Origin: Winogradskya consettensis
GTDB lineage: Bacteria; Actinomycetota; Actinomycetes; Mycobacteriales; Micromonosporaceae
Direction of reading: 5' to 3'
Assembly: GCF_018332715.1 (NCBI RefSeq)
Contig: NZ_BOQP01000067.1
Coordinates: forward strand, 1-64,000
Length of the DNA: 64,000 nucleotides
The notes under the pieces were generated by a model. It made no database searches. It was not told where the DNA came from and saw only the letters and a list, made by a program, of their open reading frames with translations. A program made the position numbers and the translations under genes. This document shows, piece after piece, positions 19,802-41,090 of this stretch. The first letter of the stretch is position 1. The number at the start of each line of letters is the position of its first letter.

Positions 19802-19830
19802 AAGGGCGGGGCCACTGCGGCCCCGCCCTT
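19802..19830 (+). terminator. Strong hairpin terminator
   Basis: AAGGGCGGGGCC (19802-19813) pairs completely with 19819-19830 around a five-base loop, followed by CTTC. It closes the hypothetical unit and separates it from the sigma-factor operon. Confidence 0.8.
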
Positions 19831-19887
19831 CTTCGCATATGCAACGCTTCCGGGCCGGGCTGCGTCCTGGGTCGGAGGTGTGAGCAC

Positions 19888-20394
19888 ATGGCTGATGACA
19901 GCCTCTTCGCGGACTTTGTTCGCATGCGAGGTCAGGCGCTCTACCGGTATGGGTATCTGCTCACCGGCAACCATCACGACGCTGACGATCTGGTGCAGGA
20001 CGCACTGATCAAGCTGCGGTCGCACTGGTCGCGAGTGTCCCGCAAGGACGATCCGACCGGGTATGTGCGGACGACCATGGCGCGGTCGCATGTGTCGGTG
20101 TGGCGACGGCGACGACGTGAGGTCCCGACCGCGAAGCCGCTGGACCACGCGTTCGACGATCCGGGGATCGACCGGGCGGAGCACACCGGCCGGGCCGGGC
20201 GGATCTGGGCCGCGCTGGCCCTGCTGCCGCCCCGCCAGCGGACCGTGCTGGTCCTGCGCTACTACGAACACATGACCGACGCCGAGATCGCGGTGTCACT
20301 CAACGTAAGCCCCGTCACCGTCCGCACCAATGCGTTGCGTGGTCTGGAGAAGTTGCGTGCGACCGGTGTCGCCGACCTGGAAGTGGTGAAGTGA
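19888..20394 (+). CDS. SigE-family ECF RNA polymerase sigma factor
   Basis: A 168-residue sigma factor with region 2 (FADFVRMRGQALYRYGYLLTGNHHDADDLVQDALIKL) and region 4 (LPPRQRTVLVLRYYEHMTDAEIAVSLNVSPVTVRTNALRGLEKL). Members of this actinobacterial SigE-type ECF group direct RNA polymerase to small regulons, often membrane or stress genes. The ATG at 19888 has GGAGGTG seven bases upstream. Its stop overlaps the start of the next gene (TGATG), so the two are translationally coupled and that partner probably controls it. Confidence 0.93.
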   Translation: MADDSLFADFVRMRGQALYRYGYLLTGNHHDADDLVQDALIKLRSHWSRVSRKDDPTGYVRTTMARSHVSVWRRRRREVPTAKPLDHAFDDPGIDRAEHTGRAGRIWAALALLPPRQRTVLVLRYYEHMTDAEIAVSLNVSPVTVRTNALRGLEKLRATGVADLEVVK

Positions 20395-21545
20395 TGACCA
20401 ACACGGACCTCAGTGCGGCGATGACCTCGTTCGCCGACGACGCCCCGCAGCCGCCGATCGATCTGCTGGAGCGGGTCGAGACCAGGCACCGGCGCCGCCG
20501 CCGCGCCCAAGCAGCGGTCGCCACCTGCGCGGCGGTGGCCGTGGTGGCGGCGGGTGCCGGTTTGTTGCGGCCGGCCCCCGAGACCGCCCAGCCGGCCGGG
20601 CCGCCGGCCACGGCCGGGTTCCACCTGCCGCCCGTCCCGGCCACGGTGCCGTCGATCAAACAGGCATGGCCGGACGCGGTGGTGGCCGACGCGATCGCGA
20701 ACACGCCGGCCGGCCGGCCGCCCCTCGTCGTCGGCGTGCTCGATCCCACTCACTGGCTGGTGGTCAGCCAGCCGGATTCGGGAAAGATGTGGAGCTACGC
20801 GGTCGCGGATCGAAAGTACCGGCCTCTGCTCACGCACACGGGCGGCGCGGTCTTCCAGGAGAGCCTGGCGGTCACCGGCAAGGCGATCGTCCGGGCCGTC
20901 GCAGCCGGTGACCACACCGAGGTCTGGATGAGCACGCGCGACGGTGGAAACGATCACCGCGTAGGCACGGTGAACCAGAAGGACTCGAACAGCCTTTGGG
21001 CTGACGACACAAACGTCTATCTCTCGTTCAACGCCGTGCCGGGCATCTTCCGGATGTCGCTCAATGACGGCCGGGCCGAGCCGCTCGACGGGTTCGATCA
21101 GTTCCGTCTCGACAAGTCACCGTGGGCGTTCAGTGACGCCGGGCCGCTCCGCAACGTGGTCACCGGCCAGGAGATCGCCGTTGCCAGGTCGACGGGCGCC
21201 GGGCCCACCGCCCCGGCCGGAGCGCAGCCCAGCTCTGCTCCGAGCGGCGAGGAAACCGTGGAATGTACGCCCGCGTTCTGTGTCGCCTGGGACGCCGCGA
21301 AGTTCGTGCAACGGCCGGACGGCTCCGAGCGCACCCCGGTGCCCTACCCGGGAGTGGAAATGATCATGCCCGGCCATCTGCTGGTGTCGGACGAGAAGCT
21401 CCTGGTCGACCCGCTGACCGGAGTGATGGGCCAGGCCGGGCCGGAGTGCCGCTACGAGGGCTACCTCGCGATGTCGGGCGGCGTCATCGTCAACTGGAGG
21501 TGCAAGGGTTCACTCTCGCAGATCTTCCTCCGCACCGAGAACTGA
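20394..21545 (+). CDS. Membrane-anchored sigma-factor partner with propeller-like domain
   Basis: A 383-residue protein. Its first 45 residues, with an LLERVETRHRRRRRAQ head, face the cytoplasm, and AAVATCAAVAVVAAGAGLL is a single membrane helix. The remaining 300 residues are extracellular and beta-rich with repeated WVxSQPD / MWSYAVADRKYRPLL / VWMSTRDGG-type strands, as in WD40-like propellers. Two Cys pairs near the end (CTPAFC, CRYEGY ... WRC) suit an exported domain. Such proteins follow SigE-family sigma genes in many actinomycetes, and an anti-sigma-like or sensing role is inferred. No clear ZAS zinc motif is visible. Confidence 0.75.
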   Translation: MTNTDLSAAMTSFADDAPQPPIDLLERVETRHRRRRRAQAAVATCAAVAVVAAGAGLLRPAPETAQPAGPPATAGFHLPPVPATVPSIKQAWPDAVVADAIANTPAGRPPLVVGVLDPTHWLVVSQPDSGKMWSYAVADRKYRPLLTHTGGAVFQESLAVTGKAIVRAVAAGDHTEVWMSTRDGGNDHRVGTVNQKDSNSLWADDTNVYLSFNAVPGIFRMSLNDGRAEPLDGFDQFRLDKSPWAFSDAGPLRNVVTGQEIAVARSTGAGPTAPAGAQPSSAPSGEETVECTPAFCVAWDAAKFVQRPDGSERTPVPYPGVEMIMPGHLLVSDEKLLVDPLTGVMGQAGPECRYEGYLAMSGGVIVNWRCKGSLSQIFLRTEN

Positions 21546-21825: not shown

Positions 21826-21928
21826 GGCCCGATCCTGACCGCCGGGGTCGCCGGCGGTGTCGATGGCCCTGGGCGAGTACGTCTCGGTCAGCAGCCAGCG
21901 CGACACCGAACGCGCCCTGCTCGCTAAG
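21826..21928 (+). pseudogene. Short partial copy of the VIT-family transporter gene
   Basis: About 100 bases match the interior of the transporter gene at 28744-29448 (there about 28888-29003), including MALGEYVSVSSQRDTERALL at near nucleotide identity. A dozen or so bases are missing within the copy (the GLVAGAV part). It has no start, no other domain and lies between the DUF6104 remnant and the IS3 remnant. It marks a duplication or rearrangement between the two sites. Confidence 0.85.
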
Positions 21929-22037
21929 CGATGTCTCGCAACTCGGTGCAGGCGTTGCCCGTGACCGGTTCCGGATCAGCCGGCCAAGGCGATGTTGAGC
22001 TTCCCCCGGTAGCTCGCAGGGTTTCCAGCATGGTCTG

Positions 22038-22576
22038 ATGACCGTGGGAGGAGTCCTCGTGGCAGCACCGAAGAAATACCCCGACGAGCTACGCCGGCGT
22101 GCGGTGCGGTTGTATCGGGAGTCGGATCCCAAGCCGGTGATTCGGCGTCTGGCCGAGCGACTCGGGGTGCATCCAGAAGCCCTGTCGAACTGGATCGAGC
22201 AGGATCAGGCCGACCATGGCTTTTTCGTATCGGAACTCGACCCGTCCCGGCGACGGTCATGACATTCGTTGCCGAGTTGCGTGAATGGTTCGGGGTCGAG
22301 CCCATCCTTCGGGTGCTCGGCATCGCGACCTCGACGTTCTACGGCTGGCTGAAACAGGCCGCTGAGCCGTCGCATCGCTGCCGGCAGGACGCGATCCAGG
22401 TCGAGGATATCGGCCGGATCCATGAGCGGTCCGGCCAGATGTATGGGTCGCCGCGGGTTCATGCCACGCTGCGGCGCCAGGGCCACCAGATCAGCCGTAA
22501 ACGCGTCGAGCGGTTGATGCGTGAGCAGGGCGCCCCGCCCCGGCATCCGCGCTGGATCTGCAGCGCGCTGCGGTAG
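22038..22576 (+). mobile_element. IS3-family insertion sequence remnant
   Basis: The first frame (22038-22262) is an OrfA start: KKYPDELRRRAVRLYRESDPK, then an HTH ending in LGVHPEALSNWI. Its Glu/Leu zipper region is missing. The second (22259-22576, overlapping by four bases) is the N-terminal part of OrfB with VEPILRVLGIATSTFYGW and RIHERSGQMYGSPRVHATLRR. It stops at MREQG before the DDE catalytic core. The element is therefore truncated at its 3' side and cannot move. I could not identify matching terminal inverted repeats. Confidence 0.85.
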
Positions 22577-22601
22577 CCGCGCGCTGATCCGCTCACCGTG
22601 G

Positions 22602-24038
22602 TCATCGCCAGTCGAAATGCTCGCGGTGCAGGTTACGGCGAGCGATCCCCGCCGCACGAAGGCTTTGGATGAAGGCGTTGACCATCGGCGCGGGCCCGCA
22701 CAGGAACACCGACACCTGGCGGGGGTCGTCGTCGGCGATGGCGGTCAGGGCGGCGTCCACGCTCAGGTAGCCGCTGGTGGTGCTGTCGTGCAGGTGTAAC
22801 CGCAGGTGGGGAACTCCGGCGGCGAGGGCGGCGATCTCGTCCGCGAACGGTGCCGGGCCGGCGGTGGTGTAGAAGAAGTCGATGCGGGCGTTCAGATGAT
22901 GGGTGTCGTGTGAGCGTAGCCAGCTCAGGAACGGGGTCACGCCGATGCCGCCGGCGATCCAGAGCTGCCGGGCCGTGCCCCTGGTGTGCGCGAAACGGCC
23001 GTGCGGGCCGCCGATCACGGCGGGCATGCCCGGCGCGACGGATTCCTGGATCGCGTGAGTGTCGTCGCCGAGTGCCTTGATACTGAACCGCAGCTCACCG
23101 TCGCTCGGGGCGCCGGAGATGGTGAAGGGGTGCCGACGCCAGCCGTGGCGGCCCTCCAGGAACAGCATCGCGAACTGCCCGGGCACGAAATGCAGAGGCC
23201 GTCCGACCGGTGTCAGCGTCACTTCGGTCAGGCCCTGCGCCACCGGGGTGACGGTGGTGACCTGGTAGTCGTGCAACGGCAGGAAGAACCGGGCGGCGGT
23301 CTCCCGGTAGACGTAGAAGACCAGTCCGGTCCCGCCGACGGCGAGGTAACTCCAGCGCAGCACCGGCGACCCGAACGTGGTGGCATCCAGCAGGCCGTGC
23401 ACGAACCCGGCCGCGAGCAGCAGGCCGGTCAACCGGTGCAACGACCGCCAGCGCTCGTACCCGCCGAGCACCAGCCGGCCGATCGCGGCCGTCCGCCGCG
23501 CCACTGCGGTCGTGCCGAGCCGGTCGACGCGACGCAGGACATCGGGCGGCAGCCAGGACAGCAGAAACCGCCACCGCGGCATGATCGCCCACAGCGCCAA
23601 GGCGGCCAGACCCCAGATCCCGATCTGCGCGAGCAGACCACCCATCCCGGAACCGTGACCATCCGGAGGTGGTCCGGTCTGGCCCACCGGGCCGGACGGG
23701 CGATCACCCTGGGCGAACAGAAGGTGCGGGATGAGCAGCAGCAGGCCGGTGATCGACAGCCGCCGGTGCCAGATCGCGGCCTTGTCAATGCCGTCGAACC
23801 AGGTCTCCACCGCGGGCAGCACCGAGATCAACATGATCGCCACCGCCATCAGCAGCACCGCCTCGGCCCCGGCCAGCTGACCCAGGAACGACCCCCATCC
23901 CACGCCGGCCGGCCGCCATACCAACCACACGACGCCGAACACGCCAGCCAGCACCATTACGCCGGCAGGCCCGACGGTACGGGCCGGCGGCACCAACCGT
24001 GACAACGGCATGAAGGCCGGACGAGTCACCACGCTCAC
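22602..24038 (-). CDS. Ferric-reductase-like transmembrane flavoprotein
   Basis: A 478-residue protein carrying electrons from cytoplasmic NAD(P)H through FAD and haem across the membrane. About six helices fill residues 20-240, with two His pairs suited to b-haem binding (IWHRRLSITGLLLLIPHLL and SLHRLTGLLLAAGFVH). The cytoplasmic C-terminal part is an FNR-type module with RHPFTISGAP for FAD, GGIGVTPFLSW for the nucleotide and FLCGPAPM near the end. The middle has a Gly/Pro-rich loop (about 108-128). It lies 45 bases beyond the kinase gene on the same strand and is probably co-transcribed with it. The acceptor, whether iron, copper or an exported flavoprotein, is not shown. Confidence 0.9.
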   Translation of the reverse strand: MSVVTRPAFMPLSRLVPPARTVGPAGVMVLAGVFGVVWLVWRPAGVGWGSFLGQLAGAEAVLLMAVAIMLISVLPAVETWFDGIDKAAIWHRRLSITGLLLLIPHLLFAQGDRPSGPVGQTGPPPDGHGSGMGGLLAQIGIWGLAALALWAIMPRWRFLLSWLPPDVLRRVDRLGTTAVARRTAAIGRLVLGGYERWRSLHRLTGLLLAAGFVHGLLDATTFGSPVLRWSYLAVGGTGLVFYVYRETAARFFLPLHDYQVTTVTPVAQGLTEVTLTPVGRPLHFVPGQFAMLFLEGRHGWRRHPFTISGAPSDGELRFSIKALGDDTHAIQESVAPGMPAVIGGPHGRFAHTRGTARQLWIAGGIGVTPFLSWLRSHDTHHLNARIDFFYTTAGPAPFADEIAALAAGVPHLRLHLHDSTTSGYLSVDAALTAIADDDPRQVSVFLCGPAPMVNAFIQSLRAAGIARRNLHREHFDWR

Positions 24039-24083
24039 CTTGCCGACGATCCCACCGGCGACCGGCTGCGGTGGCGAAATGCC

Positions 24084-25331
24084 CTACCGGACCAGGTCTT
24101 CCGACGCCGGCGGCAGCCTGATCGTGAAGGCGGCGCCCTGCCCGGGGCTGCCCCAGGCCTCGATCGTGCCGCCGTGCCCGGTGATCACTTCCCGGGCCAA
24201 CGCAAGCCCGAGTCCGAACCGGCGATGATCGTGGTCGCCGGCCCGGGCGAACCGGGCGAACAGGCGTTCGGCGTCGGCCGGGTCGAAACCGGTGCCGTCG
24301 TCGCGGACCACGACGGTGACCATGGCGCGGTCCCGGCCGAGCGTGACACTCACGTGCCCGCCGGTCTCGGTGTGACTCAAAGCGTTGTCGACCAGTGCGG
24401 TCAGCACCCGGCGCAGGGCCGCCTGGCGGCCGAGAACCCTGGTCGGCTCGCCGACTCCGGGGTCCAGTGTCAGGGCCACGTCCTGGTTCCGGGCACGGTC
24501 GGCCTGTTCCGCGATGACCGCCGATGCCACGGCTCGCAGGTCGATCGGGGTCTGGGCGTCGTCGCGGCGGCCGAGCTGGGTGGACAGCAGGAGATCCTCG
24601 ACGACCTCGCCGAGGTGCCGGGTGCCGGTGACGAGGTGATCGACGTCGGCGCTGACCTGCTCGAGGTCGACGTCGGCGCGCAGATCCATCTGCAGCAACT
24701 GTGCCCGGGTGTGCAGCTGGGTCAACGGAGTCCGCAGCTCGTGGCTGGCGTCAGCGACGAACTGCCGCTGCCGGGCCAGGGCTTCGGCGAGGGGGGCGGT
24801 GGCGCGGCGGGCGAGCAGCGCGGCCGACAACACCGCGATGACCAGGCCGACCACTTCGCCGGCCAGCAGCGCGCCGAGGAGCCGTTCGCGTTCGTCGTGC
24901 TGCTCGTGGCGGCTCATGACGACCTGAACAGTCCGGGTTCCCCTCTGCCGGGTCAAGGCCAGGTAACCGCCCTCGCGGCCATCTATGCGGGTCGTCGCGG
25001 TCGGCGCGCCGGCACGGACCCGGTCGATCGCCTCCCGGTCGGGAAGCCCTTCAGGCACATCGTCGCTAGCATCGATCCCACCAGCAGCGTTCCGCACGAA
25101 GATCCACACACCGGGTGGTGGATCGTCCACGTCCTCCGCGGTCGCCGCGGTCTGCCGCAGCAGTGTCGCGGCGGCGGTGTTCTGGCTGTGGATCACCACG
25201 ATCAGGGCCAGTGCACCGAGGACGAGCAGACTCACCGTGATCGCGGCCGCGGTCTGCGCCGCGATGACGCGCCGGGCCCGCGACAGCAGGGCCTGGTCCG
25301 GATCGCTCCTGGCCGTACCGGGCCGGTTCAT
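24084..25331 (-). CDS. Sensor histidine kinase
   Basis: A 415-residue membrane kinase. A helix at about 24-48 and another at about 152-174 enclose an extracytoplasmic sensor of about 100 residues. The HisKA box FVADASHELRTPL carries His197, the N-box is VDNALSH, and the G-boxes are DDGTGFD and RRFGLGLALAREV. The start overlaps the stop of the response regulator (ATGA), so the two are made together. The flanking redox proteins suggest it senses a redox, metal or envelope signal, but the sensor domain itself shows no named fold. Confidence 0.93.
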   Translation of the reverse strand: MNRPGTARSDPDQALLSRARRVIAAQTAAAITVSLLVLGALALIVVIHSQNTAAATLLRQTAATAEDVDDPPPGVWIFVRNAAGGIDASDDVPEGLPDREAIDRVRAGAPTATTRIDGREGGYLALTRQRGTRTVQVVMSRHEQHDERERLLGALLAGEVVGLVIAVLSAALLARRATAPLAEALARQRQFVADASHELRTPLTQLHTRAQLLQMDLRADVDLEQVSADVDHLVTGTRHLGEVVEDLLLSTQLGRRDDAQTPIDLRAVASAVIAEQADRARNQDVALTLDPGVGEPTRVLGRQAALRRVLTALVDNALSHTETGGHVSVTLGRDRAMVTVVVRDDGTGFDPADAERLFARFARAGDHDHRRFGLGLALAREVITGHGGTIEAWGSPGQGAAFTIRLPPASEDLVR

Positions 25332-26005
25332 CCGTGCCCCAGCCGGTAACCCACTCCTCGTACGGTGGCGATGGCGGTTACTCCAAGTTTGCGCCGCAGG
25401 TAGTGCACGTACGTGTCGACCAAGGCGACGCTCGCGGCGTCGGGGAAGACCTGGGTGACGATCTGCTCGCGGGTGAACGCCTGCGCCGGGTGCTGGGCCA
25501 GCAGGCGCAGCAGGTCACTCTCGCGGCCCGACAGGGCCGTGACCGACCCGTCCGGGCCGGTCACCGTCCGGGCGATCAGATCGAAGGTGGCAGCACCGAC
25601 GGCGAGCCGCTCCCCCGCCCCGGTTCGGCCGCGCAAAAGTACCCGGACACGGGCCAGCAGCTCATCGACCTCGAACGGTTTGACCAGGTAGTCCTCGGCC
25701 CCGCTGTCCAGACCGGTCACCCGGTCGGCGACGGTACCGAGGGCGGTCAGCACGAGGACCGGGACGGTGACTCCGGAACGGCGCAGCCGGCCGAGCAGGT
25801 CGAGGCCCTCGATGGCGGGCAGCCCGCGGTCGAGGATCATGGCGTCGTAGCGGCGGGTCAGGGCCAGGTGCAGTCCGGCCTGGCCGTCCGGGGCGAGGTC
25901 GGGCTCGTAGCCGGCGCCGCGGAACAGGCGCAGCAGCAGCGGGCCCAGCTCGCGGTCGTCCTCGACCACCAGCACTCGGGCGGCGGGCAGGGCAGCATCG
26001 GTCAT
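25328..26005 (-). CDS. OmpR-family response regulator
   Basis: A 225-residue regulator. The receiver domain has the acidic pair VEDD, phospho-acceptor Asp59 in ILDRGLP, and Lys109 in YLVKPFE. The winged-helix DNA-binding domain ends in VDTYVHYLRRKLG and TVRGVGYRLG. The ATG at 26005 begins just before the receiver, and the much longer open frame upstream is not protein-like. It is the natural partner of the overlapping kinase and presumably controls the surrounding operon. Confidence 0.95.
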   Translation of the reverse strand: MTDAALPAARVLVVEDDRELGPLLLRLFRGAGYEPDLAPDGQAGLHLALTRRYDAMILDRGLPAIEGLDLLGRLRRSGVTVPVLVLTALGTVADRVTGLDSGAEDYLVKPFEVDELLARVRVLLRGRTGAGERLAVGAATFDLIARTVTGPDGSVTALSGRESDLLRLLAQHPAQAFTREQIVTQVFPDAASVALVDTYVHYLRRKLGVTAIATVRGVGYRLGHG

Positions 26006-26031
26006 GGGGTCACTGTCGCAGGCTCGCATCC

Positions 26032-26499
26032 TCATCCGCCGTGTGCCGCGTCGAGCGCTGCTTGCAGTGACTGCCGGTAGCCGTCGCTGGTCACGGTGGC
26101 TCCGCTGACCCCGTCGATCCGGGCGCTCTGGGCCTGGAGGACCTGCTGCCGCAGCTTCGGCAGGGCGTAGGCGTTGATCTGGTCGTCGTGGCTGTTGCCG
26201 GTCGGGTGCTGCAGCACCCGTACCTGGGTGATCTTCGTCCCGGCGATCGTGGCCTGGATCTGGACCGGCCCCCACCGGGTCTGCGCCACCGTGCCGTTGA
26301 CAGTCGTGGTCCGCACGGCGGGCTTGCGCGACGGGGAGCCGGCCGGCGGGGCCGCGGACGCGTCGGGGACGACCCCGGGTGCGGCGGCGGCCGAGGTGGT
26401 GCCCGGCAGTCCACCGCCGGTGCTGGTGCGGTAGCTGAACAGCAGCACGAGCGCGGCCAGGGTGGACACGATCAGCAGGGTGATCCGGCGCATTCTCAT
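26032..26499 (-). CDS. Membrane-tethered FMN-binding protein
   Basis: A 155-residue protein with one N-terminal helix (about 6-22), a Pro/Ala-rich linker and an exported FMN-binding domain. RIDGVSGATVTSDGYRQSL contains the DxxSGAT motif on which ApbE-type transferases place FMN covalently at Thr, and TGNSHDDQINAYALP is also typical. It should serve as an extracytoplasmic flavin carrier between a membrane reductase and an acceptor. It lies 25 bases after the second reductase and 26 before the regulator, in one operon. ATG 26499 and ATG 26493 are both possible, the second having better spacing to GGGGAG. No ApbE gene lies in the window. Confidence 0.88.
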   Translation of the reverse strand: MRMRRITLLIVSTLAALVLLFSYRTSTGGGLPGTTSAAAAPGVVPDASAAPPAGSPSRKPAVRTTTVNGTVAQTRWGPVQIQATIAGTKITQVRVLQHPTGNSHDDQINAYALPKLRQQVLQAQSARIDGVSGATVTSDGYRQSLQAALDAAHGG

Positions 26500-26524
26500 C
26501 GTCTCCCCGGTCGGTGCGGTGGGT

Positions 26525-27943
26525 TCACCATGCGAACTCCTCGGCATGGATGTGATCAGGGCCGACGCCGGCCTCGCGCAGCGTGGCCCGCACCCCGGCC
26601 ATCCAGGGCGGCGGCCCACAGAGGAACGCGTCGTGCTGGGCCACGTCGGGCACCAGCCACCGCAGCGCGGCCAGGTCGCTGACCTGTGCGAAGCGGTCGG
26701 GCAGCCAGGAGCCGGGCCGGGCCCGGCCGCCGTCGAGGTAGATCACCCGGACCTGGCCGCGGCGGGCTGCCTCGTCGAGCTCGGTGCGAAACACGGCGTC
26801 CTCGGGCCGCCGGACCCGGTAGAGCAGGGTGACCTTCACGCCGGAACCGGCGAACTCGTCGATCAGCGCGCGCATGGTGGTGATCCCGACTCCGGCCGCG
26901 ATCAGCAACACCCTCCGCGCACCGGATCGGCGGTCGGCGGTCAGGGCGCCGTAGGGTCCTTCGACCAGCACCCGGGTGCCCGGTCGCAGCGTTGCGGCGC
27001 GGGAGCTGCCGTCGCCGAGGTCCTTGACGGTGATCCGCAGTAGATCACCGGACGGTGCGGACGACAGCGTGTAGGGGTGTGCGCGGGTCCAGCCCGGCCC
27101 GTCGAGGAAGCGCCAGAGGAAGAACTGGCCGGCGCGGGCGGGGAGCCGGTCCAGGCGGTGCCCGCTCAGATACACCGACACCACACCCGGAGCCTCCGGT
27201 ACGACCGCATGCACCCGGAGCCGGTGATACGCCGACCGGTACAGCGGCAGGCCGACCCGGAACACCACCACCGCGCCCAGCGCTACGGCGTACAGCCCCC
27301 ACCAGTACAGCCGCGCGGGTGTTGAGGCGATGAAGTCAGCACCGGTCCACAACTGATGCGGCAGGGCCAGCCCGACCCCGAGGTACGCGTACAGGTGAAT
27401 GAGGTGCCACGTCTCGTACCGTTGCCGGCGCCGTGCCAGCCGGATCGACAACACCACGACCAGGACGAGCAGTACGGTGCCGGCCGCCGCCAGGAGCATG
27501 CCGGGATATGTGGCGACCAGGTCCCAGATCTCGGCGACGACCCCCATGCCGCCGGCCTGCCCGTAGCCCACGGTGATCAGCACGACGTGGGCGATCATCA
27601 GCCAGAACGAGCAGAAGCCGACGAGGCGGTGACGGCGGGCCAGGGTGTCCTGGCCGTAGCTGCGCTCGACCCACGGGATCCGGGCCATCAGCAGAACCTG
27701 GAGCAGCAGCAGATCGGACGCGACCAGACCGGTCACCCGGCCGATCGAGGTCGCCGCACCACCCGGTGCGGCGAACCCGCGGAGCCCCCCGTTGTGCAAC
27801 CAGAGCGCCACCACGACGACCACGCTGAGCAGTGCCGCCGAGCCGGCCAGCTCGGCCCACCACCGTCGCGGCGCACGCAGCCGGCGGCTCGTCCGGCCCG
27901 CGCCGGTCAGCCGGACCCGTCCTGTCACTCTGGTCACGCTCAC
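26525..27943 (-). CDS. Ferric-reductase-like flavoprotein, second type
   Basis: A 472-residue membrane oxidoreductase, first gene of the operon. About six helices include His residues for haem in ARRHRLVGFCSFWLMIAHVV and ETWHLIHLYAYLGVGLALPH. The C-terminal FNR module has RAHPYTLSSAPS, AAGVGITTMRAL and FLCGPPPWM. It should move electrons from NAD(P)H via FAD and haem to the outer face, where the adjacent FMN-binding protein can receive them. It is not a recent copy of the reductase at 22602, since the two share only family motifs. The divergent region 27944-28103 must contain its promoter. Confidence 0.9.
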   Translation of the reverse strand: MSVTRVTGRVRLTGAGRTSRRLRAPRRWWAELAGSAALLSVVVVVALWLHNGGLRGFAAPGGAATSIGRVTGLVASDLLLLQVLLMARIPWVERSYGQDTLARRHRLVGFCSFWLMIAHVVLITVGYGQAGGMGVVAEIWDLVATYPGMLLAAAGTVLLVLVVVLSIRLARRRQRYETWHLIHLYAYLGVGLALPHQLWTGADFIASTPARLYWWGLYAVALGAVVVFRVGLPLYRSAYHRLRVHAVVPEAPGVVSVYLSGHRLDRLPARAGQFFLWRFLDGPGWTRAHPYTLSSAPSGDLLRITVKDLGDGSSRAATLRPGTRVLVEGPYGALTADRRSGARRVLLIAAGVGITTMRALIDEFAGSGVKVTLLYRVRRPEDAVFRTELDEAARRGQVRVIYLDGGRARPGSWLPDRFAQVSDLAALRWLVPDVAQHDAFLCGPPPWMAGVRATLREAGVGPDHIHAEEFAW

Positions 27944-28103
27944 GGCAGTTCACGGCCCCTTCCTCGTTCGGCTGACCGGTCCAGCGTCTCCGGCGAAAAT
28001 GGGAAGACTCGAAGATTCGGTCCATAGCCTCTGCCCCGGACGCTCGGCCGATCTCGGGTCAGCTGGTTCGCGTCGCCTCCGCTGTCGTCTTGGAAGGACA
28101 TTC

Positions 28104-28646
28104 ATGGGCTCCGTCAACGGACTGCCGGCGCACATCCTGCTGGTGCACGCCATCGTGGTCCTGCTCCCGCTCGCCGCCCTCCTACTCGTGCTGACCGCCG
28201 TCTGGCCGGCCATGCGCCGCCGCCTGGCCGGCCCCAACGCCATACTGTCGGTGCTGGTCGTCGCGCTCGTGCCGGTCACCACCAGCGCCGGGGAATGGCT
28301 GGAACACCGAGTCGCCGAAACAGAGCTGGTGCGCGACCACACCGAGCTCGGCGACACCGCCATCTGGGTCGCCCTGCCGGTAGCCGTACTGGCCCTGCTG
28401 ATCTGGTGGCGGCAGCGGGAAGCCACCGCCTCAGCCGGCACTAATGACACTGCCGGCACCGGTCAGCGGCGCACCTACCTGGCCCCGTTGTCGGTCACCA
28501 TCACCCGGGTCGTCGCCGTCCTCGCGATCGTCGCCGGCACGGCCGCCGTCTACGACACCTACCGCATCGGTGACTCCGGAGCCAAAGCCTCCTGGACCGG
28601 CAACTTCAGCCCCACCGCCGCGCCCGGAGGACCCGACGGCGACTGA
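28104..28646 (+). CDS. Small membrane protein, DUF2231-like
   Basis: A 180-residue protein with about four membrane helices. It opens with MGSVNGLPAHILLVHAIVVLLPLAAL, typical of DUF2231-type actinobacterial membrane proteins. A loop with EWLEHRVAETELVRDHTELG precedes helix three and contains His residues that could bind a metal or haem. The C-terminus is polar and Pro-rich. AAGGA precedes the ATG. It is divergent from the reductase operon and 97 bases ahead of the VIT gene, so it may share transcription with that gene. The function is unknown; an electron-transfer or metal link is inferred from context only. Confidence 0.7.
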   Translation: MGSVNGLPAHILLVHAIVVLLPLAALLLVLTAVWPAMRRRLAGPNAILSVLVVALVPVTTSAGEWLEHRVAETELVRDHTELGDTAIWVALPVAVLALLIWWRQREATASAGTNDTAGTGQRRTYLAPLSVTITRVVAVLAIVAGTAAVYDTYRIGDSGAKASWTGNFSPTAAPGGPDGD

Positions 28647-28743
28647 GTGAACCCGGCCGGCGCCAGGCCGGATTCCTCTGGCGTCAACCGGATGAACGGG
28701 AGCACACTGCGATCATGCAGACCGACCACCCGGCACCGCGACA

Positions 28744-29448
28744 ATGACGCATCCCGGCGAACCACACACCGGCGGGCTGGCCGGCCGGTTGAACTGGCTG
28801 CGGGCCGGAGTGCTGGGCGCCAACGACGGCATCGTGTCCACCGCGGGCCTCGTCGTCGGGGTAGCCGGCGCAACCCTGGCAGCCGGCCCGATCCTGACCG
28901 CCGGGCTCGCCGGTCTCGTCGCCGGTGCCGTATCGATGGCCCTGGGCGAGTACGTCTCGGTCAGCAGCCAGCGCGACACCGAACGCGCCCTGCTCGCCAA
29001 GGAACGCACCGAGCTCGCTGAGTCCCCCGAGCAGGAACTCGACGAGCTGACCGCCCTCTACGAAGCCAAGGGCCTGACCGCAGCGACCGCACGCCTGGTA
29101 GCAGAGGAGCTCACCGCCAAGGACGCCTTCGCCGCCCACGCAGACGCCGAGCTGGGCATCGACCCCGACGCCCTCACCAACCCCTGGCACGCAGCCGGCG
29201 CCTCAGCGATCGCCTTCACCATCGGCTCGCTGCTCCCGCTGATCGCGATCCTGCTCCCACCGCCGCACCTCAGGGTGCCGGTCACCTTCACCGTGGTGAT
29301 CCTCGCCCTCGCCGTGACCGGCGCGGTCAGCGCCCGGCTGGGCTCAGCCGGTATCACCCGTGCCGTCACCCGCCTGGTAGGCGGCGGCGCCCTGGCCATG
29401 GCAGTCACGTTCGGCATCGGACAACTCGTCGGCGCCGCTGTCGGGTAA
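28744..29448 (+). CDS. VIT-family Fe/Mn transporter
   Basis: A 234-residue membrane protein of the VIT1/CCC1 family, which moves Fe2+ or Mn2+ out of the cytoplasm. The first helix pair has the family signature LGANDGIVSTAGLVVGVAGA and MALGEYVSVSSQRDTERALL. The cytoplasmic metal-binding region is rich in Glu (ERTELAESPEQELDELTALYEAKGL). Three more helices follow from about residue 150. Beside two ferric-reductase-like proteins it suggests iron handling. A short piece of this gene is repeated at 21826-21928. Confidence 0.92.
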   Translation: MTHPGEPHTGGLAGRLNWLRAGVLGANDGIVSTAGLVVGVAGATLAAGPILTAGLAGLVAGAVSMALGEYVSVSSQRDTERALLAKERTELAESPEQELDELTALYEAKGLTAATARLVAEELTAKDAFAAHADAELGIDPDALTNPWHAAGASAIAFTIGSLLPLIAILLPPPHLRVPVTFTVVILALAVTGAVSARLGSAGITRAVTRLVGGGALAMAVTFGIGQLVGAAVG

Positions 29449-29779
29449 GTCCCAGGTGCGGGTGTCACTACAAGCCGGTGTTCTGGCTGGCGGGTTCCGG
29501 ACCTGACGAAGAAACCGCTCACACCGCCTTGAGCATCCTAGGAGGCTGGGTCATCGTATATTGCAGCGGTGCTGACAGCCCGCGGTCATCGCAGTGCGAC
29601 GCTGCCGCGAGTGGCCAACGTTCGCGCCGCCGCCAGGCAAATTCCTGCCACCACAGGCCGGCGAGGCGATGGGCTGGGGTGCGCGCCTGCCGGAGATGCT
29701 GTCGCCGGGCCGGGGTGCTCCGGCGTTCGCGGGCTACCTCGTTCTGGCTGCGGTGTTGCCGCATGGCGGCTGCAGCACT
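29449..29779. other. Gap without a supported gene
   Basis: About 330 bases after the transporter gene. I see no gene or clear terminator here. Part of it may be the far 3' end of the decayed kinase gene that lies to its right on the minus strand. Confidence 0.4.
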
Positions 29780-30060
29780 CGGACGCCTGAGCTCGACAAT
29801 GTGGCTTCCCGGCATCGCAGGTGCCGCCCCGGTGTCGGTCGCGGGCGTTGCCGAGGCGAGTGAAACATTCGAAGACCCGTTCCCGGTCGGCTCGGGAATG
29901 CCGGGGTCGTCGTCGGCGATGCTGATGCGCAAGCGGCTCGCCCCGGACCCTGCCCGTCCGGGTGGTGCCGGCGCCGCGCCAGTCGACGCGCGCCGGATCG
30001 GGCTCGTGCCTCTCGGTCACCACGACGGACGCACGCCGGAGGTCAATTCGCCGGCGGTCA
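29780..30060 (-). pseudogene. Histidine-kinase ATPase-domain remnant
   Basis: The minus strand reads DPARVDWRGAGTT, then in a second frame RISIADDDPGIPEP, then in the first again DRERVFECFTRLGNARDR, then DTGAAPAM. This is the order of the N/G1/F/G2 region of a histidine-kinase ATPase (usually DDGPGIPExDRERVFERF ... DTGGTGLGLAI). The frame changes twice and the G2 loop is lost. It abuts the stop of the DUF4132 gene. Kinase and regulator parts upstream are absent. Confidence 0.65.
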
Positions 30061-30063
30061 CCG

Positions 30064-32721
30064 TCAGTTCTCCCGGGTGAGATAGCGGACTGCGCGGATG
30101 GTCTCGGAAACGGCGATCGGGTTGCTCGGATCGGCGCGAACTGCGCGGAGGCGGCCCAGGTCATCGGGCTCGGAGGACAGCGGATCCCAGTCGTCGTACA
30201 GCTCGAGGTGGATCGTCTCGCCACCGAGAACCGCACGGCTGAGGCTCGTGTGGCCCTCACCGAAGCGCCAGCCCCGCGCGGCGAGCGCGTAGAGCCGCCG
30301 GCGGGGGAAATCCCGATCGAGGTACGGCTCGTACGGCTCGGCCTCGTAAACCTCCCGCTGCACCTGCTGGAACGGCTGCACGATCACATAATCGGCGAAG
30401 ATGTCCGACCAGGCGGCAACATCGAGTTCGAGCGGATGCGCCACCCGTATGACGGCGTCGCCGGGGAGCACTACCGCCTGATCGGAGACGTCGGCGAGGG
30501 AACCGTCCTCGGCCACCCGGAAGGCCACCCCGGCGGACGAGATCCAGACGAGGCGGCGGGTGAGCACCCCCATCAGCGGATGCCTCACGAGAAACGCGAG
30601 GAAGTCCGGCAGTGCCCAGCCCCGGCCGGCGACCATGGCGTCGTCCAGGGCCCGGATGCGGTCGGCACCGATCGTGGTGAGCTCCTTCTTGAGGCGCTCA
30701 AAGCCGGGATGGCGGCGGGGCAGCCGGTTGACGACGACGCCCGAGGCATTGCGGAGGACGGGGCTGAGCGACTCGTCGACGGTGACGGTGTAGAGCTCGT
30801 CGCCGGCCTCGAGGGTGGTGCTGCCCCTACGGTCGAGGCCCAGGTCGGGCACGATCCGGTCGTCGAGCTGCTCGCGGCTCAGGCCACGGACGGCGGCGAC
30901 CTTGTCCAGGCGTTTCCCGGCGTGGTTGCGCAGGCCCTTGGTGCGGGCCTTGGTAGCCGTGCGGTGCAGGTGGGTGATGGCTGTGTCCGTGCCGATCGAA
31001 GCGAGCGCGTCGAGGACGGCGGGCACCCTGGCAGAGGCCTCGACGGACCAGACCGGCAACTGCACGGCGAGGTCGTCCGCGGTGGTGTCGGTGCCGAGGT
31101 GGCCGAGCGCGGTCATCGGGAAGCGGCTGCCGTCCGCGTACTGGAATTCCCTCCACCGTTCGAAGATCGCCCACGCGAACCGGGCCGCGGACACCGGATC
31201 GAGCGCGGATCGGGCGGTGAGGAGCGCCGGGTGCGCCTTGTCCGGGGTCGAGCGGGCGATGAGTGCACAGAGCCGGTGCGCGGCGATCGGGGGCAGCGCT
31301 CCGGTGGCCGTCTCCAGCACCGGGAGACGTTGCACGACCAACCAGGTGGGGAGCCGGGGTGTGCGGCCCGGCACCTCGGCGAAGCCCTCGGGAAGCTCGC
31401 CGCCGGGTTCGGGGATGGTGTCGACAGGAAGCAGGGGGTCACCGGCGGGAAGCACTCGGGCGGCCCGCTCGGGGTCACGCCGGATGGCGGTGAGCAGGGC
31501 GGGTAGGACGTAATCCCGTTCCCGTTGCTCGGCGAGCACCGCGAACGCGTGGTCACCAGGCAGCGCGGCGAGGAACTTCACGATGGCCCGGCTCTCGACG
31601 GCGGAGCGGACGGCGGGCCATTCGCCCTTGGTCTGCGCGGCTATCAGCCCGGACAGGCCCGCGCCGACCGTGGTCACCCGGCCGGCCCGCAACTCCTCGA
31701 CCTTGTCGCGGGCGGCCGGGGGCAGCGGTGACCAGTCGGTCCTGCCGTTCCTGGTCACGACGGCGGCGAGGAGGTCGGTGGCCAGGCCGGGGATGCTGAG
31801 CCGCAGATCGGCCAGGACGCGGGCGCAGAGCAGCGGATGCCGGATCAGCACGGTCGACGAGGAGACCAGCAGATCGAAGCGGGTGACCGCATGCCCCTCC
31901 CCCACGGCGGCTTCGAGCAGCAGCCGTACGGTCTCCTCGTCGGGGCAGAGCTCCAGCAGGCGCACAGTCTCGTCGTCGTAGCCCCGCCAGCCGCTGCGCA
32001 GCTCGGAACAGAGGTGCCGGCAGTCCTCGCTCATCAGCGCGGCGGCGGCGGCGGGGCCGACGTTGCGCAGCACCGTGCCGAACAACTCTCTGCTGTACAG
32101 ATAGGTGTCACCGGCCAGGGTGTGCCGGCCGACGTGGCGCAATTGCCCGACACTGCGTACCGAGAACAGCAGCAGCCTGGACAGCTCCGTCCGTTCCCAG
32201 TGGGGCAGGTCGCGGCAGTCCTCGTCGATCCAGTCCGTGCGCTCGGGCACGAGATAGGAAGCGACGAGCCGGGCGGCGGGGTTGTCGCGACGCGGGGCCA
32301 GCTCCGCCATCACCTGGCCGATCAGCGCGGGTCCGGCGTGGACAAGTCTCGGGCGCAGGTGCTCCGCGAGGTAGATCGCCTCGGACGTGAAGGGCCCCAG
32401 GCCGGCCAGTTCGGCCACGGCCGCCGCCGCGAACGGCAGGCCGCCGAGGTCGAGCCAGGCGTCGACCAGGATGTCGAGGCTCAGGCTGATCGTGCCGTTC
32501 GGACCGCCGGTGGCGATCGCGACCTCGGCAACGCCCCGCGGTGTCGCCGAACCACCCGACCCGGTCAGGAAGTCCAGAGCCCGGGCACCCTCCGGGTCAA
32601 GACCGAGGCGGGGGGTACGGGAGAGCCAGTCGGTGTAACGGCTCAGCACATTGGGGCGAGGGTTGATCGGACGCAGGTCGGCGACGCAGCGCAACCAGTC
32701 CTCGGGGATCTCGAAAGGCAC
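30064..32721 (-). CDS. DUF4132 (MolR-like) protein
   Basis: An 885-residue cytoplasmic protein. The first 580 residues are largely helical and Leu/Ala-rich, as in HEAT-like arrays. The C-terminal 270 residues carry the DUF4132 features: a LKKELTTIGADRIRALDDAMVAGRGW segment, FLVRHPLMGVLTRRLVW, RVAHPLELD, VQPFQQVQREVY and RGWRFGEGHTSLSR. The family includes E. coli MolR and other large proteins of unsettled role, often beside WGR-domain or MoxR-type genes, neither of which is present here. The start at 32721 lies about 50 bases past a large hairpin. It appears to be expressed alone. Confidence 0.8.
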   Translation of the reverse strand: MPFEIPEDWLRCVADLRPINPRPNVLSRYTDWLSRTPRLGLDPEGARALDFLTGSGGSATPRGVAEVAIATGGPNGTISLSLDILVDAWLDLGGLPFAAAAVAELAGLGPFTSEAIYLAEHLRPRLVHAGPALIGQVMAELAPRRDNPAARLVASYLVPERTDWIDEDCRDLPHWERTELSRLLLFSVRSVGQLRHVGRHTLAGDTYLYSRELFGTVLRNVGPAAAAALMSEDCRHLCSELRSGWRGYDDETVRLLELCPDEETVRLLLEAAVGEGHAVTRFDLLVSSSTVLIRHPLLCARVLADLRLSIPGLATDLLAAVVTRNGRTDWSPLPPAARDKVEELRAGRVTTVGAGLSGLIAAQTKGEWPAVRSAVESRAIVKFLAALPGDHAFAVLAEQRERDYVLPALLTAIRRDPERAARVLPAGDPLLPVDTIPEPGGELPEGFAEVPGRTPRLPTWLVVQRLPVLETATGALPPIAAHRLCALIARSTPDKAHPALLTARSALDPVSAARFAWAIFERWREFQYADGSRFPMTALGHLGTDTTADDLAVQLPVWSVEASARVPAVLDALASIGTDTAITHLHRTATKARTKGLRNHAGKRLDKVAAVRGLSREQLDDRIVPDLGLDRRGSTTLEAGDELYTVTVDESLSPVLRNASGVVVNRLPRRHPGFERLKKELTTIGADRIRALDDAMVAGRGWALPDFLAFLVRHPLMGVLTRRLVWISSAGVAFRVAEDGSLADVSDQAVVLPGDAVIRVAHPLELDVAAWSDIFADYVIVQPFQQVQREVYEAEPYEPYLDRDFPRRRLYALAARGWRFGEGHTSLSRAVLGGETIHLELYDDWDPLSSEPDDLGRLRAVRADPSNPIAVSETIRAVRYLTREN

Positions 32722-40212: not shown

Positions 40213-40497
40213 GAATGAGTTCTCCTTCGTGCCTTGTGACAGCGCCGGAGGACGTGTGCGGTTGCGCCGCCCTCTGACAGCCTGCTTTCTGGGCATGGCC
40301 GGATTTTCTCTCGGCAAGTGGCACCCGAGGCAGAGGCTTTGGTCCCGCCCGCGCCGGTCATATCACCCCCATCTCAGCCCCCACCGGGGGGCGGGTGGAC
40401 GCCCTGCATCCGACCCGTCGAGTGGGGCCGTTCGGCCCTGCACCGAAACATGCCGGGAGCCGACCGTGGAACAAGACCCAACTCTGGAGGTTCCCTC

Positions 40498-41090
40498 ATG
40501 ACCGCATCAACCGAGCGGACGAACCGCGAGACGACCGCCGTCCTCTACGCTGCGGCCCGGGCATCGCTGCGCGCGCCGTCGGTGTTCAACACCCAGCCGT
40601 GGAAGTGTCACATCACCGGCGATACTCACCGTCGATCGGTTCCCGGACCCCGCACGCCCCGACCTGCTCACCCGCGTCCACCTCGGCAAGGCAGTACCAC
40701 CCGACCCGGAGGCGCAGCGGATGGCCGCGGTCATCCCGCGCCGACACACCGACCGGCGAGCCTTCGCCGACCGGCACGTGTCTGAAGCGATCCTCACCCG
40801 CCTGCGTCGCTTCGTCGAGTCCGAGGGCGCGTACCTGCATGTGGTGCCGCAGGATCAGATCCCGATGCTGGCCGTGTCCACCGAGCAGGCCACCGGCGCG
40901 GAACGCAACGACCCCGCCTACCGCGAGGAGCTCAACAAGTGGACCAACCGGCCGCAGTGGCGTGGCGACGGTGTGCCGCCGTCGACCGCTGTACAACCCA
41001 CCCTGCGCCGGGTCGGCGTTCGCGACTTCGTCCCGGAGGGCGCGACCGGCGGTCTGACCGCCGGCGACGGCTTCACCCACCGGTCGTCGA
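40498..41090 (+). pseudogene. Acg-type nitroreductase remnant
   Basis: ATG 40498, with GGAGG upstream, opens AARASLRAPSVFNTQPWKC and ITGD, the N-terminus of actinobacterial Acg-family FMN-dependent nitroreductase-like proteins. A deletion of perhaps 60 codons and a frame change near 40620 lead into ILTVDRFPDPARPDLLTRVHLG, IPRRHTDRRAFADRHV and AYLHVVPQDQIPMLAVS. The end (VRDFVPEGATGGLTAGDG) loses similarity at about 41085, so the C-terminal quarter is missing too. It lies divergent from the broken phosphoketolase. Confidence 0.8.

Follow-up and report, generated by a model that had tools for sequence, protein, structure and literature searches.

The window analysed here, a 64,000-nt stretch of the 10.6-Mb genome of Winogradskya consettensis, carries genes for flavin- and haem-dependent electron transfer together with a two-component system (TCS) between positions 22602 and 29448. 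Our best overall explanation of this locus, to which we give a probability of roughly two in three, is that the TCS controls a flavin/haem electron-export module via a conserved 20-bp box. The gene set is a real module: the sensor kinase, a DUF2231 membrane protein and the reductase-like protein FRE2 recur together across the genus beyond chance, and the box is found both at the sensor genes and before unlinked FRE2 and DUF2231 genes. The electron-export machinery belongs to a known type, and what is newer is probably the control circuit, a dedicated TCS acting via the box. Genes were taken from a list of open reading frames (ORFs) and families from Pfam profiles. The genus comparison comprised 67 Actinoplanes genomes, including that of W. 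consettensis (coded G000) and its sister species (G057).

Organization of the locus

On the minus strand, the order of transcription is FRE2, FMN-binding protein, response regulator (RR), histidine kinase (HK) and FRE1. FRE2 (26525-27943) is an MsrQ-like membrane protein fused to FAD/NAD domains (Ferric_reduct, 2e-17); the closest named relative found for it is from Winogradskya (Actinoplanes) humida NBRC 14915 (96% identical). The FMN-binding protein (26032-26499; FMN_bind, 4.2e-11) contains the motif DGVSGAT. The OmpR/PhoB-type RR (25328-26005; Response_reg and Trans_reg_C) has 225 aa, and the HK (24084-25331) has HisKA and HATPase_c domains. The last gene encodes FRE1 (22602-24038), a predicted NOX-like di-haem FAD/NAD(P)H membrane oxidoreductase of 478 aa. 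Intergenic gaps are 25 bp (FRE2/FMN), 26 bp (FMN/RR) and 45 bp (HK/FRE1), and RR and HK overlap by 4 bp; the row presumably forms an operon. Divergently, on the plus strand, lie genes for a DUF2231 four-helix membrane protein (28104-28646; 2.4e-7) and a VIT1-family Fe/Mn transporter (28744-29448; 5e-68). Three start codons are our choice: 26005 for RR (whole ORF 25328-26275), which gives the 4-bp overlap with HK; 26499 for the FMN-binding protein (whole ORF 26032-26619); and the preferred start from which the DUF2231 coordinates are counted. This gene list agrees with the initial annotation, whose outer coordinates are ORF ends and which had already recognized the DxxSGAT flavinylation motif, the overlap of an OmpR regulator with its kinase and the divergent DUF2231 and VIT genes.

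Co-occurrence across the genus

The kinase was searched for in the 67 genomes, with 27 candidates scored per genome. Orthologues above 400 bits were present in 23 genomes, at 24 loci (hereafter TCS loci); the next match scored 285 bits. DUF2231 (E up to 1e-15) was found in all 23 kinase genomes versus 2 of the 44 others, and is the kinase's steadiest partner. The two DUF2231 genomes lacking a kinase orthologue (G005 and G023) had no box in the 7 kb read in either; in G023, kinase residues 338-409 remain next to DUF2231, which by its look is a deletion. FRE2 at 640 bits or more occurred as 12 copies in 11 genomes, that is, in 11 of the 23 kinase genomes versus none of the 44 others; FRE2 copies below this set, scoring 571 and less, were common. 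Fisher tests on the DUF2231 and FRE2 counts gave 6e-16 and 1e-6, values that ignore kinship and depend on cut-offs (400 and 640 bits) set after the gaps had been seen. The initial annotation had staked its proposal on co-occurrence of the genes in related genomes, and for the kinase, DUF2231 and FRE2 it survives that test.

An intact VIT gene adjoins DUF2231 at 7 of the 24 TCS loci (G000, G057, G054, G052, G014, G074 and G013). At an eighth (G045) VIT is in pieces, and the promoter and both ends of FRE2 are kept with its middle lost. VIT thus appears to be a frequent accessory. FRE2 lies beside RR in the G000 clade, G014 and G020. Given their places in the kinase tree (12 of 23 inner forks open, bootstrap not settled), gain or loss of the FRE2-RR linkage has probably happened on more than one occasion.

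A conserved box before sensor and reductase genes

The intergenic regions between DUF2231 and either FRE2 or RR have in common a 20-mer with the consensus GAATCTTCGAGTTCTCCCAT. At the W. consettensis locus it reads GAATCTTCGAGTCTTCCCAT (27999-28018, minus strand), lies in the divergent promoter region and is a candidate binding site for the RR. The box expression matched once in each of the 21 intergenic regions examined (21 of the 24 TCS loci), and the box is also present at the remaining three (G057, G017 and G004). With a position weight matrix (PWM), leave-one-out scores were 21.0-36.1. When 5.16 million positions of overlapping loci chosen around module genes were scanned with the PWM, sites of at least 25 bits all lay in module loci; the next best scored 20.2. 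The least biased test was a scan of the 67 genomes with an IUPAC pattern, which gave 43 matches versus 7 for the reversed pattern. Twenty-four of the 43 were at TCS loci and 19 elsewhere; nine of these 19 scored at least 25 bits, and eight of the nine precede FRE2 and/or DUF2231. The pattern was found in 23/23 kinase genomes versus 4/44 others, and those four scored at most 18.

The box lies upstream of all 12 FRE2 copies of at least 640 bits (11 genomes). Five of these boxes are training sites and a sixth belongs to a near-identical sister copy of training sites; among the other six, one escaped the pattern and was picked up with the PWM. Outside the model, the box was found before unlinked FRE2-FMN pairs in G012, G008, G020 (C143), G047, G013 and G055 (30.1), between FRE2 and DUF2231 in G004 (C84), before DUF2231 and before RR-HK in G017, before FMN-RR-HK in G004 (C13) and, in G074 (C59), before a second, decayed locus that includes FRE2-FMN. 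In W. consettensis itself, a FRE2-FMN paralogue (C22:69435) had no site above 10.1 within 19 kb, and a 20-bit match at C42:4147 is repeated in the sister genome.

On the FRE2/RR side, the consensus shows an A.GCT-type hexamer 11-16 bases after the box. On the opposite side, inspection by eye showed a TA-containing element (GCTAGG, GCTATG, CGTAGG and similar) at 22 DUF2231-linked sites, less clear before the unlinked FRE2-FMN copies. In our reading, one box could serve both divergent promoters, with the regulator, most simply the adjacent RR, activating each. That the box is shared with the sensor genes suggests that the sensor controls the reductase set.

Two different reductases

The initial annotation had described two distinct ferric-reductase-like proteins. 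They are indeed distinct, and FRE1 is better described as NOX-like. FRE2 scored 63.8 bits with Ferric_reduct (cut-off 28); FRE1 matched this family weakly (0.0016, 18.9 bits, under the cut-off), and its NAD_binding_1 match (0.002, 19.2 bits) was under the cut-off of 22. FAD_binding_8 was detected in FRE1 at 1.3e-6. In phmmer searches of the PDB, FRE1 grouped with SpNOX of Streptococcus pneumoniae (8qt6, E 4.5e-32), for which FRE2 gave 2.6e-8. Both proteins contain two H-X12/13-H pairs. Those of FRE1 (H91-X13-H105 and H201-X12-H214) correspond to the two His-X12-14-His pairs in the membrane part of bacterial NOX, and its motifs HPFTI at 303 and GIGVTP at 364 pass the published motif filters for these enzymes (PMC5676040; here and below, statements attributed to papers refer to the parts of them that we covered). 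FRE2, with HPYTL at the corresponding place, fails the NOX FAD motif H[PSA]F[TS][LIMV]. FRE1 resembles SpNOX in architecture, in the four haem histidines and in HPFTI and GIGVTP (PMC5676040, PMC11031084; PDB 8qt6); unlike SpNOX it is about 80 residues longer (478 versus 399) and its gene lies beside a TCS. We take FRE1 to be a NOX-like protein, distant from FRE2, with an activity predicted on these grounds.

Orthologues of FRE1 (at least 58% identity) were found in four other genomes of the 67: G057 (96%), G020 (60%), G018 and G056 (both 58%). Only in W. consettensis and its sister species is FRE1 beside the kinase (2/67 genomes, 2/24 TCS loci); the orthologues in G020, G018 and G056 lie away from this TCS. 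That of G020 (C144; L128, 3614-9882) adjoins genes for ApbE and for a P-type ATPase that contains a hemerythrin domain, and the neighbours in G018 and G056 have no partner in common. FRE1 thus looks like a rare accessory of the module. Directly downstream of it is a truncated IS3-family transposase ORF (22259-22576; HTH_21, 2e-16) that scored 76 bits with NF033516 (cut-off 160); over most of this stretch the sister genome does not align.

Relation to MsrQ-like flavinylation systems

The FMN-binding protein (FMN_bind 43.8 bits, cut-off 22) has one hydrophobic segment, residues 5-23, and is encoded adjacent to FRE2. In MsrQ-like flavinylation systems, a PF01794 protein is clustered with an FMN_bind or ApbE gene and a [S/T]GA[S/T] motif is present on an extracytoplasmic protein. 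FRE2 and the FMN-binding protein form such a pair, and DGVSGAT behind an N-terminal hydrophobic segment predicts flavinylation. Such systems have been described in 1797 clusters, 153 of them with VIT1; they are common in Actinobacteria and "typically include apbE" (Meheust et al. 2021, PMC8238504). A whole-genome search, as the initial annotation had advised, found ApbE at two places elsewhere in the genome and none on the contig of the window, so this typical, not obligatory, cluster feature is lacking; the second ApbE gene lies on a contig of 3.9 kb and begins 78 bases from its end. On these sequence criteria, FRE2-FMN is an MsrQ-like flavinylation system of a kind already reported with VIT1 (PMC8238504).

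The locus shares with these systems a PF01794 protein with a C-terminal NAD-binding domain, an FMN_bind protein with SGAT and VIT1, which those systems sometimes include (PMC8238504). It differs from them in that ApbE is missing from the cluster, DUF2231 is present, a second reductase is NOX-like, and a TCS of its own comes with a conserved box that unlinked copies also carry. The covered parts of PMC8238504 name neither a regulator of MsrQ-like clusters nor DUF2231, and literature searches for a TCS link to flavinylated or ferric-reductase systems in Streptomyces and Actinoplanes, judged largely by title, found none. New here are the recurrence of the box, DUF2231 as the most constant companion of the kinase, a NOX-like FRE1 at the locus, VIT at a minority of TCS loci and the company of stress genes described below. 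As far as the literature was covered, the signal and the electron acceptor of the common actinobacterial MsrQ-like systems are not known, and the box offers a direct handle on them. The DUF2231 family gains a functional context, and a NOX-like enzyme is placed beside a defined sensor.

To place FRE2 more widely, its best 80 relatives out of 424 from the genome collection were surveyed. FMN_bind lay within 1.5 kb in 77 of the 80 and ApbE within 4 kb in 58, and 46 had some RR/HK pair no more than 5 kb away; DUF2231 was within 4.5 kb in 9, and VIT was present in 4. The RR/HK pair that runs divergently in Streptomyces FRE-FMN-ApbE clusters is only remotely similar.

The kinase beyond the genus

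In a class-wide search of 296 genomes (6 candidates scored in each, E up to 1e-50), the kinase was matched in at least 37 genomes, W. consettensis included; the number of candidates scored makes this a lower bound. All 39 kinase loci outside the W. consettensis genome were read, and 12 had a module hit: four with FRE2/FMN, five others with ApbE and four with DUF2231, one of these shared with FRE2. A 34-bit FRE1-type match (L313) was left out of the counts. One of the ApbE loci (L315) has a NuoF-like protein beside the TCS. In another genus, VIT, DUF2231, catalase, RR and HK genes lie in a row (G240 C28; L323, 2-6242). In three of the five ApbE loci (L317 10273, L318 7362, L320 9581), all from one other family of the order, a box-like site scoring 15-17 bits precedes ApbE by about 40-80 bp. 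Nothing else exceeded 14 among the 1.17 million positions scanned in the 40 loci, which hints that in this family the same circuit may reach the flavinylating enzyme. The pairing looks old but loose.

Sensor kinase, DUF2231 and VIT proteins

The HK has two hydrophobic segments with a region of about 105 aa in between. In an AlphaFold2 model (mean pLDDT 79, pTM 0.49), the elements of this region follow the order a-b-b-a-b-b-b, which in our judgement makes the modelled extracytoplasmic region PAS/PDC-like. DUF2231 has the conserved residues H10, H15, E64 and H79. The VIT protein belongs to the VIT1/CCC1 family: the Pfam domain is full length (229.5 bits, positions 1-214 of 214), and residues 20-229 align to VIT1 (PDB 6iu3, 9e-17). 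Unlike MbfA it lacks a ferritin-like domain, and it scored 15.7 bits with the MbfA iron exporter model NF045676 (cut-off 450). A 103-bp fragment at 21826-21928, downstream of FRE1, is 86% identical, with gaps, to part of the intact VIT gene and is likewise present in the matching end of the sister genome. We read it as debris of a second VIT copy.

Proposed function and alternatives

In the explanation that we favour, the TCS would sense something outside the cytoplasmic membrane, and the regulator would bind the box between FRE2 and DUF2231. Both arms would then be switched on: FRE2-FMN-RR-HK-FRE1, the TCS itself included, and DUF2231-VIT. FRE2 would draw electrons from NAD(P)H and relay them, via FAD and a pair of b-haems, to the FMN-binding protein. 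The latter, anchored in the membrane and flavinylated at the SGAT threonine by an ApbE encoded elsewhere, would hand them to an acceptor outside the membrane. FRE1, probably a later addition in this species pair, may export electrons directly, with oxygen or ferric iron as the most likely acceptor. VIT would move Fe2+/Mn2+, and DUF2231 could be a constant helper or a sensor partner.

One alternative is that the regulon is an outlet for low-oxygen or redox stress, serving to drain reductant or to detoxify as levels of oxygen or nitric oxide shift, with the iron genes as optional passengers. Genes for universal stress proteins (USPs), nitroreductases or CBS proteins occur at nine of the 24 TCS loci and at three of the nine unlinked loci with a box (12/33) versus 0/28 other Actinoplanes loci (Fisher 2e-4, relatedness ignored); one nitroreductase of the cluster was identified by Pfam, and USP and CBS proteins by eye. 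We treat this enrichment as a lead only, because all three queries were drawn from case loci and the comparison set was one of convenience, not a random sample; in addition, related species were counted apart. USPs and nitroreductases belong to the DevR/OsdR dormancy regulons (PMC5069765), which are likewise under TCS control, and the row with VIT, DUF2231, catalase, RR and HK in G240 fits the same picture. Differences from these regulons are the OmpR-type regulator, the different box and the absence of a tight gene neighbourhood in the window, where the closest such gene, a nitroreductase similarity in two frames that looks frameshifted (40495-41068), is 11 kb from VIT. DevR-like palindromes were not enriched (5 in 214,528 bases versus 8 in 283,515). 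We give the stress outlet a little less than an even chance; the genomic company hints at low-oxygen or redox stress at least as much as at iron.

As for iron, the reductases could form an assimilatory system, reducing Fe3+ outside the cell, with VIT taking up or balancing Fe2+, as has been read for MsrQ-like clusters with VIT1 (PMC8238504). The 153 published clusters of this kind, the VIT genes beside DUF2231 and the surroundings of the G020 FRE1 orthologue agree with this; the P-type ATPase there is by our inference a P1B-5 ATPase, and one such ATPase of this build has been reported to act in transport of Ni and Fe (PMC9388753). Against it, most TCS loci lack VIT, and the direction of VIT transport is itself doubtful because bacterial MbfA, with a VIT-like domain, has been described under iron efflux (PMC7762939). 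An assimilatory role seems rather doubtful to us; iron balance is possible and not favoured over a low-oxygen or redox role. Here the initial annotation fares unevenly. Its regulated trans-membrane electron transfer with a dedicated sensor is supported indirectly by the box, the co-occurrence of kinase, DUF2231 and FRE2, and ApbE in the genome; the iron-balance part is weak in view of VIT at 7/24 and FRE1 at 2/24 TCS loci.

A more specific scheme, which we consider unlikely, is that the kinase works together with DUF2231 as a new redox-sensing unit of the membrane. The conserved DUF2231 histidines would bind haem or a metal and signal the condition of the electron-export chain to the kinase; the kinase would then set the level of flavinylated electron transfer (FRE2-FMN, or ApbE in another family) wherever the box occurs; the NOX-like enzyme would have been wired in later in one species pair.

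Several observations weigh against a sensor-controlled electron-export module. The box was first spotted by eye in regions later used for the model, so independent evidence for it comes from sites at unlinked genes and from the scan of the genus; the species also share ancestry. One strong box stands outside any FRE2, DUF2231 or TCS context, before a gene for a 152-aa secreted DUF11-like protein (G020 C144; L252 6793-6812, 33 bits). The other ten genus-scan matches scored at most 24 bits and had no module gene in the stretches fetched except in G069, where a match scoring below 13 has a FRE2-FMN-ApbE row nearby. The boxed FRE2 of G004 C84 (L138) has no adjoining FMN gene. A consensus scan of 22000-30200 revealed no sigma-70-like promoter. 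VIT, intact in a minority of TCS loci, and FRE1 are accessories and not constant members. The reductase itself is dispensable, because no boxed or nearby intact FRE2 was found in 5 of the 23 kinase genomes (G017, G042, G045, G065 and G067). Outside W. consettensis, 27 of the 39 kinase relatives had no FRE2/FMN, ApbE or DUF2231 match within the sequence read, which was short for some of them, and the pairing as a general rule for the kinase family was dropped for that reason. It could thus be argued that the TCS serves DUF2231, its steadiest companion, or an unrelated job, with FRE2-FMN, VIT and FRE1 (at the locus in two species only) as neighbours recruited by chance; the same box before unlinked FRE2 genes, and the absence of FRE2 of at least 640 bits from all 44 genomes without the kinase, make this quite improbable.

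Neighbouring features

At 19819-21545 in the window, a sigma-70-like factor is followed by a protein with no Pfam match; the two are possibly a sigma/anti-sigma pair. At 30911-30981, ARAGORN called a tRNA-Thr antisense within an 885-aa ORF, a call that may be false.

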